DNA from: Bacteroidota bacterium
GTDB lineage: Bacteria > Bacteroidota > Bacteroidia > Bacteroidales > F082
Assembly: GCA_016845175.1 (NCBI GenBank)
Contig: JAERTD010000014.1
Coordinates: 1 to 64,000, forward strand
DNA: 64,000 nt
Direction of reading: 5' to 3'
Shown here: one piece after another, positions 36,956 through 53,847 of the stretch
Layout: each line of letters opens with the position of its first letter
Position numbering within the stretch: position 1 is the stretch's first letter
Notes under the pieces: model-generated
Told to the model about the DNA's origin: nothing
Database searches by the model: none
Seen by the model: only the letters and a program-made list of their open reading frames with translations
Translations under genes and position numbers: made by a program

Positions 36956-38527
36956 TTACTTTTCTGAAGCATTGGCGGGATCATTTTCCTCCACAGCTTC
37001 TTCTTCATCACTTAATCTTCTGAATATATCCCATTTGTCTTTCGGACGGGCTTCCAGCTGCCAGGTGAATCCCTTTAACTGACGCTGTTCAGTAGGCAAA
37101 TCTACTTCAGGATACATATTCTCAGTGGCCTGATTCTGATAGCTAAGATTGTTGATCTCACTGTCTTTAAACCGGATCTCCATGGTGGAGGATTCTGCCA
37201 CATTTATCCCAATCAGATAGCCATCCTCTTCACGAATATAGTATACCGTTTGGGCATTTCCATCCACGGCAATCTTATAGATTTCATTATTCCTGAAATA
37301 GCCCACCATATTTTTACCCTTGATCTGATTATAAGAGTCGATGGTGTCACTTGAAATAATAAAAGCCGTATTAAACATGATGAGTGAATCGATTCGGTTG
37401 CTGGCTGTGACAATAAATATGGAGTCGGCGGTAAGTTGGTTTTGTTTCGACCATAGGGTGGGGTCATTGTACATTTTTATGGTAGAGTCACTCATGCTAT
37501 AAGCCAGTGAATCGCATTTGCCCTGAAAATCGCTGCGGTAAAAACGTACATTGTTATAGGCAAACAAACTTTTCGCATCCCGGTTTTTGTCGAAATGAAT
37601 CCACATGGTATCTGCATGAATAAACAATGAATCATGTTCATCATAAGTGACCGCAACTGCGCTGTCGGTTATATAGGAGACGCCCTTGTCATCCCACATT
37701 TCTCCCAACCTGCCTCTGATAAACACATTTCTCACTGTATCATGAATTTGAACATGACCATAGGCCCTCCCAAAATAACTGAGGTTATCGTATATCAGGC
37801 TGTCAGCAGAAATGGTTTGCCCGGCATTGGAAATGGAGGGACGTTCAACTAATTTGGACAAATCGTTTTTGGTATCGTACCAGCCTTCCTCGCAGTAAAT
37901 GGTACTTTCCTCTCCACGGATGACGGTGGGACCATGAAAATAGGCCGTTTCGTTATTGGTATTATAGGTAAGAGTATCTGAGTAGGTCTCAGAGTCGGGG
38001 TTCTTTAAAACCACATCTTTCCTGAAATAAAAAATTCTGGATTTGGTATCATAATAACCCCTTTCGCTGGTCAGGGTATTATCCTGATTCACAATATGCC
38101 CACCCACATCATAAAAAGCTATCTGCGTGCGGCGGTTGTATACAAGGTGTTCAGTAGTTAGCACAGTATTTTTATCCACCAATTTCACCTTTTCAAAAAG
38201 CTCGGCAACTTTTGTTTTCCCATCATAATACAATCGATCACCATACAAATCCACCGTATCATTTACGTCAATATGAACCTTACCAAAGGCTTCGAAGCTG
38301 TTGGTTCTGTCGTTGAGAAAGGCAGAGTCACAATAAAAATAGGTAGAGTCCTGACGCATAACCACTTGTCCGATCAGCATCTGGATGTTTTTGCCCCTCT
38401 TCTCATCGTAGCGGAAGGCATCAGCGTGCTTGATATGAACCTTTGATTTCTTTTGTGCATACAGACCTGCTCCGGCAGATAAAAACAAGGCACAAAAAAC
38501 TACAATTATAACGGAGGTTCTGAGCAT
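36956..38527 (-). CDS. OstA-like (LptA-related) periplasmic protein
   Basis: A 523-residue exported protein with signal peptide 1-24 and several OstA/LptA beta-jellyroll repeats (for example YDEKRGKNIQMLIGQVVMRQ, DSTYFYCDSAFLNDRTNSFE and repeated -LxYDxxTxxAxFxG- strands). LptA-type jellyrolls bridge LPS from the inner to outer membrane; Bacteroidota have this long form, often near lptD. The acidic C-terminus (SDEEEAVEENDP) is low complexity. It is convergent with the mlaD-like gene with only a four-base gap. Confidence 0.85.
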   Translation of the reverse strand: MLRTSVIIVVFCALFLSAGAGLYAQKKSKVHIKHADAFRYDEKRGKNIQMLIGQVVMRQDSTYFYCDSAFLNDRTNSFEAFGKVHIDVNDTVDLYGDRLYYDGKTKVAELFEKVKLVDKNTVLTTEHLVYNRRTQIAFYDVGGHIVNQDNTLTSERGYYDTKSRIFYFRKDVVLKNPDSETYSDTLTYNTNNETAYFHGPTVIRGEESTIYCEEGWYDTKNDLSKLVERPSISNAGQTISADSLIYDNLSYFGRAYGHVQIHDTVRNVFIRGRLGEMWDDKGVSYITDSAVAVTYDEHDSLFIHADTMWIHFDKNRDAKSLFAYNNVRFYRSDFQGKCDSLAYSMSDSTIKMYNDPTLWSKQNQLTADSIFIVTASNRIDSLIMFNTAFIISSDTIDSYNQIKGKNMVGYFRNNEIYKIAVDGNAQTVYYIREEDGYLIGINVAESSTMEIRFKDSEINNLSYQNQATENMYPEVDLPTEQRQLKGFTWQLEARPKDKWDIFRRLSDEEEAVEENDPANASEK

Positions 38528-38873: not shown

Positions 38874-38881
38874 TACATTTG
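38874..38881 (+). promoter_or_regulatory. -7 promoter element (TACATTTG) for gatE-gatD
   Basis: Exact TAnnTTTG match 35 bases before the gatE ATG; the gene is thus under a host-type promoter. Confidence 0.5.
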
Positions 38882-38916: not shown

Positions 38917-40839
38917 ATGCAGTTTAATCCTAAGCAAAATTATATTCAAACCCGCAAGAACATTGGCTATGTGCCACGACTTGAAGCCAGTCAGAAAGAT
39001 TATGACAGAATTGGTTTTATGTCGGGTTTGGAAGTGCATCAGCAGTTGTTGACCAAGGAAAAGTTGTTTTGTCATTGTCCGGCTGGTATATACCATAAGA
39101 GCGATGATTATGATGCAGAACTCATCAGACATATGCGTCCTACCCTAAGTGAATTGGGTGAGTATGATGGCACCGCCCTGATGGAATTCAGAACGAGAAA
39201 GGAAATAATCTACCGCATTAAGAACGAGAATGCTTGCACCTATGAGGTTGATGACACCCCACCATTCCCTATTAATAGAGAAGCTCTTGAGATTGCATTG
39301 GAGATATCCTTGTTATCCAAACTCAATGTAGTGGGTGAGGTACACATCACCAGAAAGCAGTATCTGGATGGAAGTATTCCTACTGGCTTCCAGCGGACAG
39401 CCATCCTGGGTGTTGAGGGAGAACTAGAACTGCCGAAGAAAAAGGTTCGGTTGATTCAATTGAGTATCGAAGAAGATTCCTGCAGAGAGATTTCTGATAT
39501 TGGACATACCAGAACCTATAAAACTGACCGATTGGGTATGCCCTTGATCGAAACAGTAACCTATCCTGATTTTGTCAATCCTGAGGAAGTGATGGAAGGT
39601 TGCGATTATATTCGTTTTCTCAACAGAAGTACCGGAAAAGTTCGGACAGGTATGGGTGCGGGCCGTCAGGATGTGAATGTCAGTTGCCGCGGTGGATCAA
39701 GGGTTGAAATCAAAGGTGTTGCTCATAGCAAATGGATCCCTGAACTCACCCATAATGAAGCTTTCCGCCAATGGGCATTGCTTCACATCAAAGATCAGCT
39801 GTTGAAAAGCATCAGTGAACCTAAAAACTGGAAGATTCACAGCATGGAGCTTTCTGAATTGAAAGATGTCAATGCTGAAAAAATTTACGCAGTCAATCTC
39901 CCAGGCTTCCATGGCCTATTGTCACATTTTACCCAGCCCGGAAAGAGTTTTGCAGATGAAATTGGTGATCGCTTAAGCGTAATTGCTTGTTTGGAGCAAC
40001 CTTTTATGATGCATTCTGAGATGCTGGAGCCTGTATTGGGAGAAGAGGAGTGGGAATCTATCCGAATTTCGTTAGATGCTGCAAAGGAAGACGCTCAAAT
40101 TATTTTTTGGGCAAATGAAGAGGATGTTAAGACAGCTCTGGAAACCATAGAAGAAAGGTGCCAGATGGCATTTGAAGGTGTGCCTAATGAAACACGTAAA
40201 TCATTTGTTGATGGTACAACCATCTTTGAAAGGGTGTTACCAGGAGCCGACAGAATGTATCCTGACACGGATTCTGCACCTATTCCTCTGGAAGATGAAT
40301 ACATCACACGATTGGCTGAAAACCTTCCTGTGGATGTGATTGAAAACCATAAGCAATTATTGGACTGGGGCGTTTCTTCAGAGACTTTCACTTATATCTT
40401 CTCAAAGAACCTGTTTCCAATAATTGAGAAAACCATAAACACACTCAAACTGGATCCAAAATATATTGGCATGTTTTTCGGGCTTCGTTTAAAATTTGCT
40501 GAAGGACAGTACAAAAAAGGATTGGAGTTTAATTATAATATGGTTTATGCCCTGTTTGCCTGGCTGGTGAAATCAGATATTGATATTAAACTTGCTGAAA
40601 AGATGCTTCCGGAATTGATTCAACATCCGAAAATGGATTTTGCTTCTATACTGGAAACCATAGGCTTTAAAAAAATCGATCGGGAATCCATATTAAGCAA
40701 GATTCCGATTCTAATGAACAAGTTTGCCGAAGGAAAAACTGAAGTTAATCCCATCCATCAGAAAAATTGGGTCATGGGTCAGCTCAGAAATACGGCACTT
40801 GGAAATATAAACTTAACAGAATTGAGTAAAACGATATAA
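38917..40839 (+). CDS. gatE: Archaeal-type Glu-tRNA(Gln) amidotransferase subunit E
   Basis: With GatD, converts Glu-tRNA(Gln) to Gln-tRNA(Gln). The 640 residues show the whole GatE layout: a GatB-like kinase cradle (MSGLEVHQQLL at 35-45, LFCHCPAG at 50-57, GSIPTGFQRT at 152-161, IEEDSCREI at 184-192), GMGAGRQDVNVSCRGGSRVE at 245-264, an AspRS-like GAD insertion at about 290-420 that bacterial GatB lacks, LPGADRMYPDTDSAPIP at 441-457, and a YqeY-like tail ending NWVMGQLRNTALGNI. The insertion distinguishes it from GatB. GatDE is known mainly from archaea, so horizontal transfer is likely. A host-type promoter precedes it and gatD follows after 55 bases. Confidence 0.95.
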   Translation: MQFNPKQNYIQTRKNIGYVPRLEASQKDYDRIGFMSGLEVHQQLLTKEKLFCHCPAGIYHKSDDYDAELIRHMRPTLSELGEYDGTALMEFRTRKEIIYRIKNENACTYEVDDTPPFPINREALEIALEISLLSKLNVVGEVHITRKQYLDGSIPTGFQRTAILGVEGELELPKKKVRLIQLSIEEDSCREISDIGHTRTYKTDRLGMPLIETVTYPDFVNPEEVMEGCDYIRFLNRSTGKVRTGMGAGRQDVNVSCRGGSRVEIKGVAHSKWIPELTHNEAFRQWALLHIKDQLLKSISEPKNWKIHSMELSELKDVNAEKIYAVNLPGFHGLLSHFTQPGKSFADEIGDRLSVIACLEQPFMMHSEMLEPVLGEEEWESIRISLDAAKEDAQIIFWANEEDVKTALETIEERCQMAFEGVPNETRKSFVDGTTIFERVLPGADRMYPDTDSAPIPLEDEYITRLAENLPVDVIENHKQLLDWGVSSETFTYIFSKNLFPIIEKTINTLKLDPKYIGMFFGLRLKFAEGQYKKGLEFNYNMVYALFAWLVKSDIDIKLAEKMLPELIQHPKMDFASILETIGFKKIDRESILSKIPILMNKFAEGKTEVNPIHQKNWVMGQLRNTALGNINLTELSKTI

Positions 40840-40894
40840 TGTAGGATGACATCAGGTTTTTACTCAATTGAAAGAGCCGGTCATTCGAAAATTA

Positions 40895-42286
40895 ATGCAT
40901 ATGGATTCAGATATTTTTCAAGGATATAAAGGGGATGCACTAGAGGTGCTGAAAAAATATCAGGTAAGGGTGTGGGGAACTACCAAAGTTGAAACCACTC
41001 GTGGTACTTTTGAAGGGACTGTCTTACCACGTGCCGAAAATGATGACGACAAGCATATTGTGGTTAAAATCATTACCGGTTACAATATTGGCATCGACAT
41101 CCGAACCATTACTACCATGGAGGAAACTGGCTATAAGAAGGCCAATTACAAAATTCCTGAAAAACAGTTTCCTTTCACACCAGGTTTGCCAAGTGTGAAA
41201 CTGTTTGGAACCGGTGGAACCATTGCATCGCGTCTGGATTATAGAACCGGCGCTGTGATTCCTGCTTTTTCACCAGGAGAGCTCTACGGAGCCGTCCCTG
41301 AACTGGCTGATATCTGTAATCTGGATACAGAAAAGGTATTTGCAGTTTTTAGTGAGAATATGGGGCCTAAACAATATATGGCACTGGCAAAAGCCATTGG
41401 AAAAGAAATTGAAAACGGTATTGATGGTATCGTGATCGGACATGGAACGGATACCCTGCATCATACGGGTGCAGCATTGACCTTTATGTGTCAGAATCTA
41501 CCAGTTCCTGTGGTACTCGTAGGTTCACAACGCTCCTCCGATCGCCCCAGTTCCGATGCGGCACTGAACCTGATGCATGCCATGAAGGCTGCCGGAACTT
41601 CAGATATAGCTGAGGTGATGGTTTGTATGTTTGGACCCACTTCCGACGAATATGGATTGTTACATAAAGGAACCAGAGTCCGTAAAATGCACTCATCCTA
41701 CCGATCTACGTTCAGAACCATTGGCGATACACCACTGGCAAGGATCAGCCGTAAAGAGATTAATCCCATTAAGCAGCATTATAACAAGCGTCGAAATGAT
41801 AAAGAAGTAAAAATCCTGCCCTATTTCAGTGATAAGGTAACCATGCTGTATTATTATCCCGGGATGGCTGCCGATACCCTGGATGCATTGGTGGAGAAAG
41901 GCTATAAGGGAATCATTTTCGTTGGAACAGGATTGGGTCATGTGAATAAAGAACTCTATCCTGCCATCGAAAGGGCTCAGGCAAAGGGTGTTCATATGTA
42001 TATGACCCTTCAAACACTATGGGGCTATGTTCATATGTTTGTTTATGATACCGGACGTGATATGATGGCCAAAGGGATTATCCCGGCCGGAAATATGTTG
42101 CCTGAAGTGGCCTGGGTAAAACTAAGCTGGATTTTAGGACAAACCGAAGATCCTGAAAAGGTCAAGGAAATGATGCTTACCCCGGTAAATGACGAGATTA
42201 CCCTCAGAGAACCTTATAACGGTTACCTGGTATACCAGGGTGGGGTACCTGAAGTGGAAGACTTCATTAAAGATGTCCACAAATAG
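40895..42286 (+). CDS. gatD: Archaeal-type Glu-tRNA(Gln) amidotransferase subunit D
   Basis: The glutaminase subunit of GatDE, an L-asparaginase-like enzyme that makes ammonia for GatE. Residues 7-75 form the GatD-specific N-terminal beta-domain (YKGDALEVLKKYQVRVWG), absent from plain asparaginases. The active site is complete: Thr109 in LFGTGGTIASR, Thr185-Asp186 in GHGTDTLHHTGAA and Lys264 in GTRVRKMHSS, matching the Thr-Thr-Asp-Lys set of archaeal GatD. The in-frame TTG at 40868 is a weaker start than the ATG at 40895 (ATG 40901 is also possible). It probably shares the gatE transcript. Confidence 0.94.
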   Translation: MHMDSDIFQGYKGDALEVLKKYQVRVWGTTKVETTRGTFEGTVLPRAENDDDKHIVVKIITGYNIGIDIRTITTMEETGYKKANYKIPEKQFPFTPGLPSVKLFGTGGTIASRLDYRTGAVIPAFSPGELYGAVPELADICNLDTEKVFAVFSENMGPKQYMALAKAIGKEIENGIDGIVIGHGTDTLHHTGAALTFMCQNLPVPVVLVGSQRSSDRPSSDAALNLMHAMKAAGTSDIAEVMVCMFGPTSDEYGLLHKGTRVRKMHSSYRSTFRTIGDTPLARISRKEINPIKQHYNKRRNDKEVKILPYFSDKVTMLYYYPGMAADTLDALVEKGYKGIIFVGTGLGHVNKELYPAIERAQAKGVHMYMTLQTLWGYVHMFVYDTGRDMMAKGIIPAGNMLPEVAWVKLSWILGQTEDPEKVKEMMLTPVNDEITLREPYNGYLVYQGGVPEVEDFIKDVHK

Positions 42287-52530: not shown

Positions 52531-53847
52531 CAGCATGGACTTGGTATCGATGACCATACCGTTCACTAGCAATTGAGAATAATACAGACCTTTGGGAAGA
52601 CCTGAAGCGTCGAACAGGACCTGATATTTTCCAGCTAAGGCATCCCCATAAAACAAACTTCTGATTTTTTGACCCCCGGAATTCATGAGGATTAATTCTA
52701 TGCTCATTTGCGTTTGATGGGCATCACCTATATGGAAAGCTATGGTGGTTTGTTGGTGGAAAGGATTGGGATAATTCTGATGCAATTGTATGGGTAAATC
52801 ATGATCAATAAACTCGATAGTCCCAACAGAGCCATCAGGAATAAATCTCAGTGCTCCGCCTTCATAACCCACCGCGTACCCATGCCACTCATCAGGGAAC
52901 ATTACATCAAATATGGCCATGGATTCGGGCGTGTCGATTTCGGTCCACACCTGACCTGTATCTGTACTGTAAATAAACTTGTTTCTGGGACCCAATGGAG
53001 CCCAGACTTCATGTGCATTTACGAAATCCAGATCCACGGCATTACCCTGGATGCCGACTTCATCATATGACCATTGCAGTCCACCGTCCCAGCTCCGGAT
53101 AAGTCCCACGCCATAACCAAAGTCAGGATCACCACCTGCTCCCATAATATGCAGAGAATCGAAAAGGTGTAATTGGTGTACTTCATCTGCAGGGGCTTGT
53201 GATACATCTATAGCTGACCAGTGCTCACCACCATCATGGGTATGCCAGCAAACACCTGCGATATCAAAAATGCCACCACTGGCATAGCCATATTGCTCAT
53301 TGTAGAACTGTATACTGAGTACCGGAAAAAAGGCCAGGGTAGAGGTGTCGATACTGGCCTGCTGCCAACTTTCACCACCATCCTGGGTGTGAACAAGGGC
53401 ATGAGGACTGCCACCCATCCACCCGTTTAATGAATCAAGATAATGGATGCAATTGATAAAAATATTCTCTTCAGGATAAGGATAGCTTATCCAGTCATTA
53501 CCTCCGTTATAAGTTTTAAGCAGGACGGTTCCATAGGGTGGCTCGCTGTAGTTCACAGCTGCAGCCCATCCCAATTGGTCGCTTTGAAAGTAAATGCTAT
53601 AAATGTCATGAATAATTGTACTGTTCTGGAACTCCCATTGTAAACCTCCATCCTGTGTGTGGAGTATAATACCTGAGTCGCCTGCCACCCAGCCTTTAAG
53701 GCTGTCTGTAAAAAAAACCGAATGCATATCTTGTTGGCTAGGCAAAGCCATGCTTTCCCAGCTTCCTTGTGGGAATAACTTCTCATGAGCTGTTATCGCG
53801 AATAACAAGATGAGGAAATGACCTATGTGAGGCTTATATTTATGCAT
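52516..53847 (-). CDS. Secreted YCF48/BNR-like repeat protein with T9SS domain
   Basis: A 443-residue exported protein with signal peptide 1-27 (hydrophobic IGHFLILLFAITAH) and a seven-bladed-like propeller of YCF48 repeats, the form GWVAGDSGIILHTQDGGLQW recurring about every 45 residues (ALVHTQDGGESW, WHTHDGGEHW, STDTGQVW). The C-terminus is a T9SS sorting domain (LHQNYPNPFHQQT to SMLLIDE). YCF48 was first seen in photosystem assembly, but in Bacteroidota such proteins are secreted repeats of unknown binding function. Convergent with the 50893 gene. Confidence 0.88.
   Translation of the reverse strand: MHKYKPHIGHFLILLFAITAHEKLFPQGSWESMALPSQQDMHSVFFTDSLKGWVAGDSGIILHTQDGGLQWEFQNSTIIHDIYSIYFQSDQLGWAAAVNYSEPPYGTVLLKTYNGGNDWISYPYPEENIFINCIHYLDSLNGWMGGSPHALVHTQDGGESWQQASIDTSTLAFFPVLSIQFYNEQYGYASGGIFDIAGVCWHTHDGGEHWSAIDVSQAPADEVHQLHLFDSLHIMGAGGDPDFGYGVGLIRSWDGGLQWSYDEVGIQGNAVDLDFVNAHEVWAPLGPRNKFIYSTDTGQVWTEIDTPESMAIFDVMFPDEWHGYAVGYEGGALRFIPDGSVGTIEFIDHDLPIQLHQNYPNPFHQQTTIAFHIGDAHQTQMSIELILMNSGGQKIRSLFYGDALAGKYQVLFDASGLPKGLYYSQLLVNGMVIDTKSMLLIDE

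Follow-up and report, generated by a model that had tools for sequence, protein, structure and literature searches.

The window, a 64,000-nucleotide stretch of a Bacteroidota chromosome, carries two consecutive genes, gatE and gatD, whose products match the subunits of the archaeal Glu-tRNA(Gln) amidotransferase GatDE. The features of the locus are as follows.

36956-38527, minus strand: OstA-like gene (Pfam OstA_2), the divergent neighbour of gatE; context, not part of the enzyme
38874-38881, plus strand: TACATTTG, upstream of gatE, a short match to the Bacteroidota -7 consensus TAnnTTTG
38917-40839, plus strand: gatE (genome position G000:C14), ATG open reading frame of 640 residues; tRNA-binding and kinase/transamidase subunit of the Glu-tRNA(Gln) amidotransferase
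39889-40161, plus strand: AspRS-like (GAD-type) insertion of GatE, residues about 325-415, aligning with 2d6f_C and 1zq1_C; limits approximate, as the Pfam GAD domain itself is not called
40237-40287, plus strand: GatE motif LPGADRMYPDTDSAPIP, residues 441-457, aligned to LPGKARMYPETDIPPLR of 1zq1_C
40414-40836, plus strand: C-terminal helical/tail region of GatE, GatB/YqeY-like, tRNA-binding in solved homologues
40895-42286, plus strand: gatD, 463 residues (461 if started at 40901; longest open reading frame 472 residues, from TTG 40868); glutaminase subunit

A first, sequence-only reading took the match at 38874 for a host-type -7 element. The element is there, but we saw no clear -33 element with it upstream of gatE, and its support for expression is weak. 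For gatD, an ATG start at 40895 or 40901 appears more likely than TTG 40868, because most relatives have 461 residues beginning M(x)xDIFQGYKG. Both genes are intact, as first claimed: the reading frames are full, the catalytic residues are present, and dN/dS among close relatives is far below 1 (0.03-0.09 for gatE, 0.005-0.04 for gatD), with low values also in genera that have GlnRS. At about 118 of 131 loci gatD comes directly after gatE, and contig ends cut several of the exceptions. An OstA-like homologue adjoins gatE in five relatives (G003, G005, G012, G026 and G031), and also in 23 of the 80 loci examined.

Family membership and predicted fold

In a curated model search, GatE passes the archaeal model TIGR00134 (gatE_arch; 396 bits, cut-off 319.6) and comes slightly below the cut-off of NF003107 (449.6 bits against 456). 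GatB models give it 44-112 bits, far under their cut-offs (106 bits against 314.8 for TIGR00133). Its best solved relatives are the archaeal chains 2d6f_C (E 1.7e-90) and 1zq1_C (E 7.8e-82), with GatB next at 4e-18, and a Foldseek comparison of the predicted fold likewise places 2d6f (E 4.5e-31) and 1zq1 (E 1e-30) before GatB (6e-16). The model has a mean pLDDT of 75.6, with weak stretches at 66-115, 188-203 and 429-450 and Foldseek TM values of 0.54-0.68. Its predicted architecture is that of GatE, with a cradle domain, the AspRS-like insertion, and helical and tail domains. The C-terminal region is predicted to be helical (pLDDT mostly 84-95), and its tail residues G621, A627, G629 and N630 are invariant in 18 relatives; the LPGADRMYPDTDSAPIP motif is nearly invariant in an alignment of 18 relatives. 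The original description of a full-length, 640-residue GatE with the AspRS-like insertion and this motif is borne out by the open reading frame, TIGR00134 and the 2D6F/1ZQ1 alignment, which agree.

GatD passes TIGR02153 (gatD_arch; 500 bits, cut-off 324), contains GatD_N (PF18195; 45.3 bits, cut-off 25.7) as well as both asparaginase domains, and matches 1zq1_A with an E value of 9e-118. The N-terminal domain and the complete Thr109/Thr185/Asp186/Lys264 site that had been read from the letters are present; in the numbering of the 472-residue TTG frame, the four residues are 118, 194, 195 and 273, aligned to 1zq1_A and 2d6f_A.

These sequence comparisons confirm that this Bacteroidota chromosome carries an intact and genuine GatDE of the archaeal type, with agreement far beyond chance. 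GatB and L-asparaginase are homologous to GatE and GatD, but the notion that an ordinary GatB and L-asparaginase were misread here is refuted, almost to certainty, by the model scores, the GatD_N domain, the structure matches and the position of GatE in the tree described below.

Glutamine charging in the window's genome

The assembly (G000; 3.9 Mb, 114 contigs, 92% complete) encodes an intact GlnRS (759 bits, G000:C27:4255-5838) and one detected GluRS, counted from cross-hits of the GlnRS model. A GatB model search of this genome found no GatB of its own, GatE lying below the TIGR00133 cut-off. There is a tRNA-Gln(UUG) (G000:C25:29883-29953; L159 1500-1571) and a tRNA-Gln(CUG) (about C27:1356-1429) 2.8 kb from glnS, the two together being L255/L327. 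Both have a U1-A72 end pair, as do all tRNA-Gln examined. Two traits of the archaeal context are thus missing, since GlnRS is present and tRNA-Gln is without A1-U72.

The sequence-only reading had called for a genome search for glnS, GatB and GluRS, and had reasoned that GatDE would be redundant or specialised if glnS were present; with glnS found, this was the right question. GatDE would be redundant or corrective in the window's genome, because GlnRS, GluRS and both tRNA-Gln are present and GatB is absent.

Two further features of these tRNAs were seen. The tRNA-Gln(UUG), and also L226, has a weak anticodon stem (tgtga/tcata, against gcaga/tctgc in most relatives). The tRNA-Glu (L158 1501-1575) appears to end in a wobble pair, G1-U72, and this could bear on how GatDE distinguishes tRNA-Glu from tRNA-Gln.

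Distribution and history of GatDE

The genomes compared are nearly all MAGs, and absences from them are less than certain: the evidence comes from model searches, in G031 also from synteny, and for tRNAs from a similarity search. Of 61 related genomes, 37 have GatE above cut-off and one more has it split across contigs; the window's family accounts for 31 of these (out of 37 family genomes) and the rest of the order for 7 (out of 24). In the same 61 genomes, GatD passes its cut-off in 38 and GlnRS in 53, and a true GatB occurs in only three. When 395 genomes were scanned across the phylum in a stratified sample, 29 more with GatE came up, all in another class. In a scan of named genomes there were at least 571 matching stretches, and the 80 matches listed are all from Bacteroidota MAGs, mostly labelled Bacteroidales. 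One genome has a GatD above cut-off (G048:C463:1645-2850) and no GatE that we found; its gatE may fall in a gap between contigs, or this GatD may stand alone.

In a GatE tree of 56 rows rooted on GatB, the sequences of the window's family form one clade (support 98) inside a Bacteroidales-type clade (support 100). The latter also holds L056 (G216), from the other class, whose GatE is 64% identical to the window's and likely marks a transfer of GatDE within the phylum. A separate clade (support 98) takes in most of the other-class sequences. The three archaeal sequences lie away from the bacterial ones, and the joint bacterial branch has a support of 94, not enough to be starred, with one long other-class branch (L054) unplaced; a single origin of bacterial GatE is likely on this topology. 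The archaeal set consists of Mth, Pab (partial, from alignments) and a Natrinema gene with a frameshift, and because there are only these three, the tree names neither an archaeal donor nor a direction of transfer. The phylogeny that the sequence-only reading had proposed separates GatE from GatB, but does not establish an archaeal origin.

The same reading had spoken of a functioning transfer rather than a relic. Intactness and selection bear out the first part, but this is not an isolated transfer: GatDE is an inherited, selected trait of the window's family, passed on vertically within it and shared with other lineages of the phylum, rather than a recent acquisition of this genome.

Plasmid carriage was also considered, but plasmid searches returned no bacterial plasmid with GatE, only GatB matches and one haloarchaeal record. 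The latter (L315, CP031304.1 706665-707968) is a GatE gene, unannotated and with a frameshift, on a megaplasmid of Natrinema thermotolerans.

Gain and loss among relatives

The stronger functional evidence is comparative, coming from relatives that lack GlnRS and keep GatDE, rather than from the -7 element. In genus g13, all four genomes (86-96% complete) are without GlnRS and all have GatE. If the completeness values are taken as independent miss chances, the probability of missing GlnRS four times is about 3e-5 by our own arithmetic. Two g13 genomes were tested for a GatB of their own and yielded none, the GatB model responding only to GatE. In G031, glnS and tRNA-Gln(CUG) are both absent from an otherwise syntenic site whose flanks lie on one contig; G031 retains, at 85% identity, the gene that abuts tRNA-Gln(CUG)-glnS in G018, and shares synteny with G003 on the gatDE side. 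Both g13 and G031 have the ordinary GluRS of the family, and no second copy was seen. With a single ordinary GluRS and no GlnRS, GluRS would have to charge tRNA-Gln in these genomes.

The reverse loss also occurs. GatDE is absent in six genomes of the family, five of which (G002, G011, G014, G016 and G021) all keep GlnRS, as expected of a redundant route. The sixth, G023, is a MAG of 460 contigs in which neither GatDE nor GlnRS was found. The two patterns together imply that GatDE is able to take over from GlnRS and can be dispensed with where GlnRS is present. GatDE usually stands beside the ordinary bacterial enzyme, and in g13 it apparently takes the place of that enzyme.

We looked for a sign of a non-discriminating GluRS at the position of Arg358 of T. 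thermophilus GluRS, the residue usually cited for tRNA discrimination. None was found: all 55 aligned GluRS have Arg there regardless of GatDE or GlnRS, and the position is uninformative. When GluRS residues were searched for any that follow the loss of GatDE, position 183 alone stood out: four of the five GatDE-less family genomes have I or M there in place of V. This association breaks down across the wider order and is probably due to chance.

Comparison with known systems

The sequence-only reading was right that GatDE is regarded as the archaeal route to Gln-tRNA(Gln): a 2022 review states that it is now found only in archaea (PMC9499178), as does a 2021 review (PMC8007984). Archaeal GatDE is reported to recognise A1-U72 and the D-loop of tRNA-Gln, in archaea that lack GlnRS (PMC9499178), and the reviews link the archaea-only distribution with this lack of GlnRS and with GatDE having co-evolved with the tRNA-Gln of archaea. 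Among the papers searched that mention GatDE, all outside subscription journals, none has bacterial GatDE as the topic of its title or abstract. Database family models would label these genes correctly; the annotation exists, and this is not the discovery of a family.

Compared with the archaeal enzymes of known structure (2D6F, from Methanothermobacter thermautotrophicus with tRNA-Gln, and 1ZQ1, from Pyrococcus abyssi), the window's GatDE has the same subunits, domain order and catalytic residues, and is alike in the AspRS-like insertion, the tail region and the fold. However, GatE is only 35-38% and GatD 45-47% identical to them, the host is bacterial, tRNA-Gln has U1-A72 instead of A1-U72, and GlnRS is usually present. 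The coexistence of GatCAB with GlnRS in, for example, Bdellovibrio, Deinococcus and Thermus (PMC4206432) is a parallel in that an amidotransferase is kept beside direct synthetases, although GatCAB has three subunits whereas the window's genome has GatDE and no GatB that we found.

For Bacteroidetes, a discriminating GluRS and a functional GlnRS were deduced from the missing gatCAB (PMC3927822). The window's genome resembles that scheme in having GlnRS, one GluRS and no GatCAB, but the scheme equates the absence of gatCAB with loss of the indirect route, and GatDE breaks this step, undermining the deduction that GluRS discriminates and that GlnRS is obligatory. An established GatDE in bacteria with bacterial-type tRNA-Gln, mostly beside GlnRS, also challenges the archaea-only claim and its explanation. 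The GlnRS-less genus and the sister genomes with and without GatDE offer natural experiments on tolerating two routes to one charged tRNA.

A probable second route to Gln-tRNA(Gln) and its alternatives

Gene integrity, family membership, fold, selection, co-occurrence and the pattern of loss are directly supported by the observations above. We consider it highly probable that this is a working GatDE under purifying selection, acting as a second route or a clean-up beside GlnRS and as the only route found in relatives without GlnRS. From the same observations we infer catalytic activity, a relaxed GluRS and the role of GatDE alongside GlnRS. Most likely, the single ordinary GluRS would accept tRNA-Gln at least in part and make Glu-tRNA(Gln). 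GatD would free ammonia from glutamine (or asparagine), and the ammonia would move to GatE, which would phosphorylate and then amidate the glutamate on Glu-tRNA(Gln) to give Gln-tRNA(Gln). In the window's genome, this would provide a second route or clear mischarged tRNA-Gln; in relatives without GlnRS, GluRS plus GatDE would be the only route found. Counting against this explanation are the U1-A72 pair, in place of the A1-U72 that archaeal GatDE is reported to use, the retention of GlnRS in 33 of 38 GatDE genomes, and the invariant Arg of GluRS, which gives no hint of a non-discriminating enzyme.

A doubtful variant has GlnRS and GluRS-GatDE working in parallel to charge glutamine, each preferring a different tRNA-Gln isoacceptor; lineages would switch between the two by losing one, and GatE would be re-tuned to bacterial U1-A72 tRNA-Gln. 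Also unlikely is an isoacceptor split, in which GlnRS would serve the tRNA-Gln(CUG) encoded beside glnS, and GluRS plus GatDE would serve tRNA-Gln(UUG). In about 17 genomes of the family the CUG tRNA adjoins glnS; it differs from the UUG tRNA in the D-loop and the anticodon stem-loop. It has no match in the GlnRS-less G012, G025, G031 and G023, and is found in 22 of the 32 genomes of the family that contain GlnRS (p about 0.017 in a one-sided Fisher test, our own arithmetic, ignoring relatedness); moreover, the UUG tRNA of the window's genome is 100% identical to that of the GlnRS-less G012. However, the five GatDE-less genomes that have GlnRS keep the same type of UUG tRNA, so GlnRS must charge it there, and about 10 genomes with both enzymes showed no CUG tRNA, although one may have escaped the similarity search. 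A strict rule of one route per isoacceptor seems unlikely because GatDE-less genomes retain the UUG tRNA. It is possible that glnS and tRNA-Gln(CUG) are a co-inherited pair across the family; in G003 (L258), for example, glnS lies at C16:51722-53506 and the tRNA at about 53577-53650, and about 16 loci are similar.

Coexistence with GlnRS and the U1-A72 end pair would also leave room for a GatDE repurposed to amidate some substrate other than Glu-tRNA(Gln). We find this improbable: the AspRS-like insertion and the tail region are retained, and relatives without GlnRS and GatCAB need Gln-tRNA(Gln) and have only GatDE to make it. Least probable of these, and largely refuted, is the reading of GatDE as a functionless relic, or a drifting transfer, wherever GlnRS is present. 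The presence of GlnRS and several independent absences of GatDE from genomes that have GlnRS might point to it, but against it stand the intact catalytic residues, the low dN/dS even in GlnRS-bearing genera and the retention of GatDE by most of the family.
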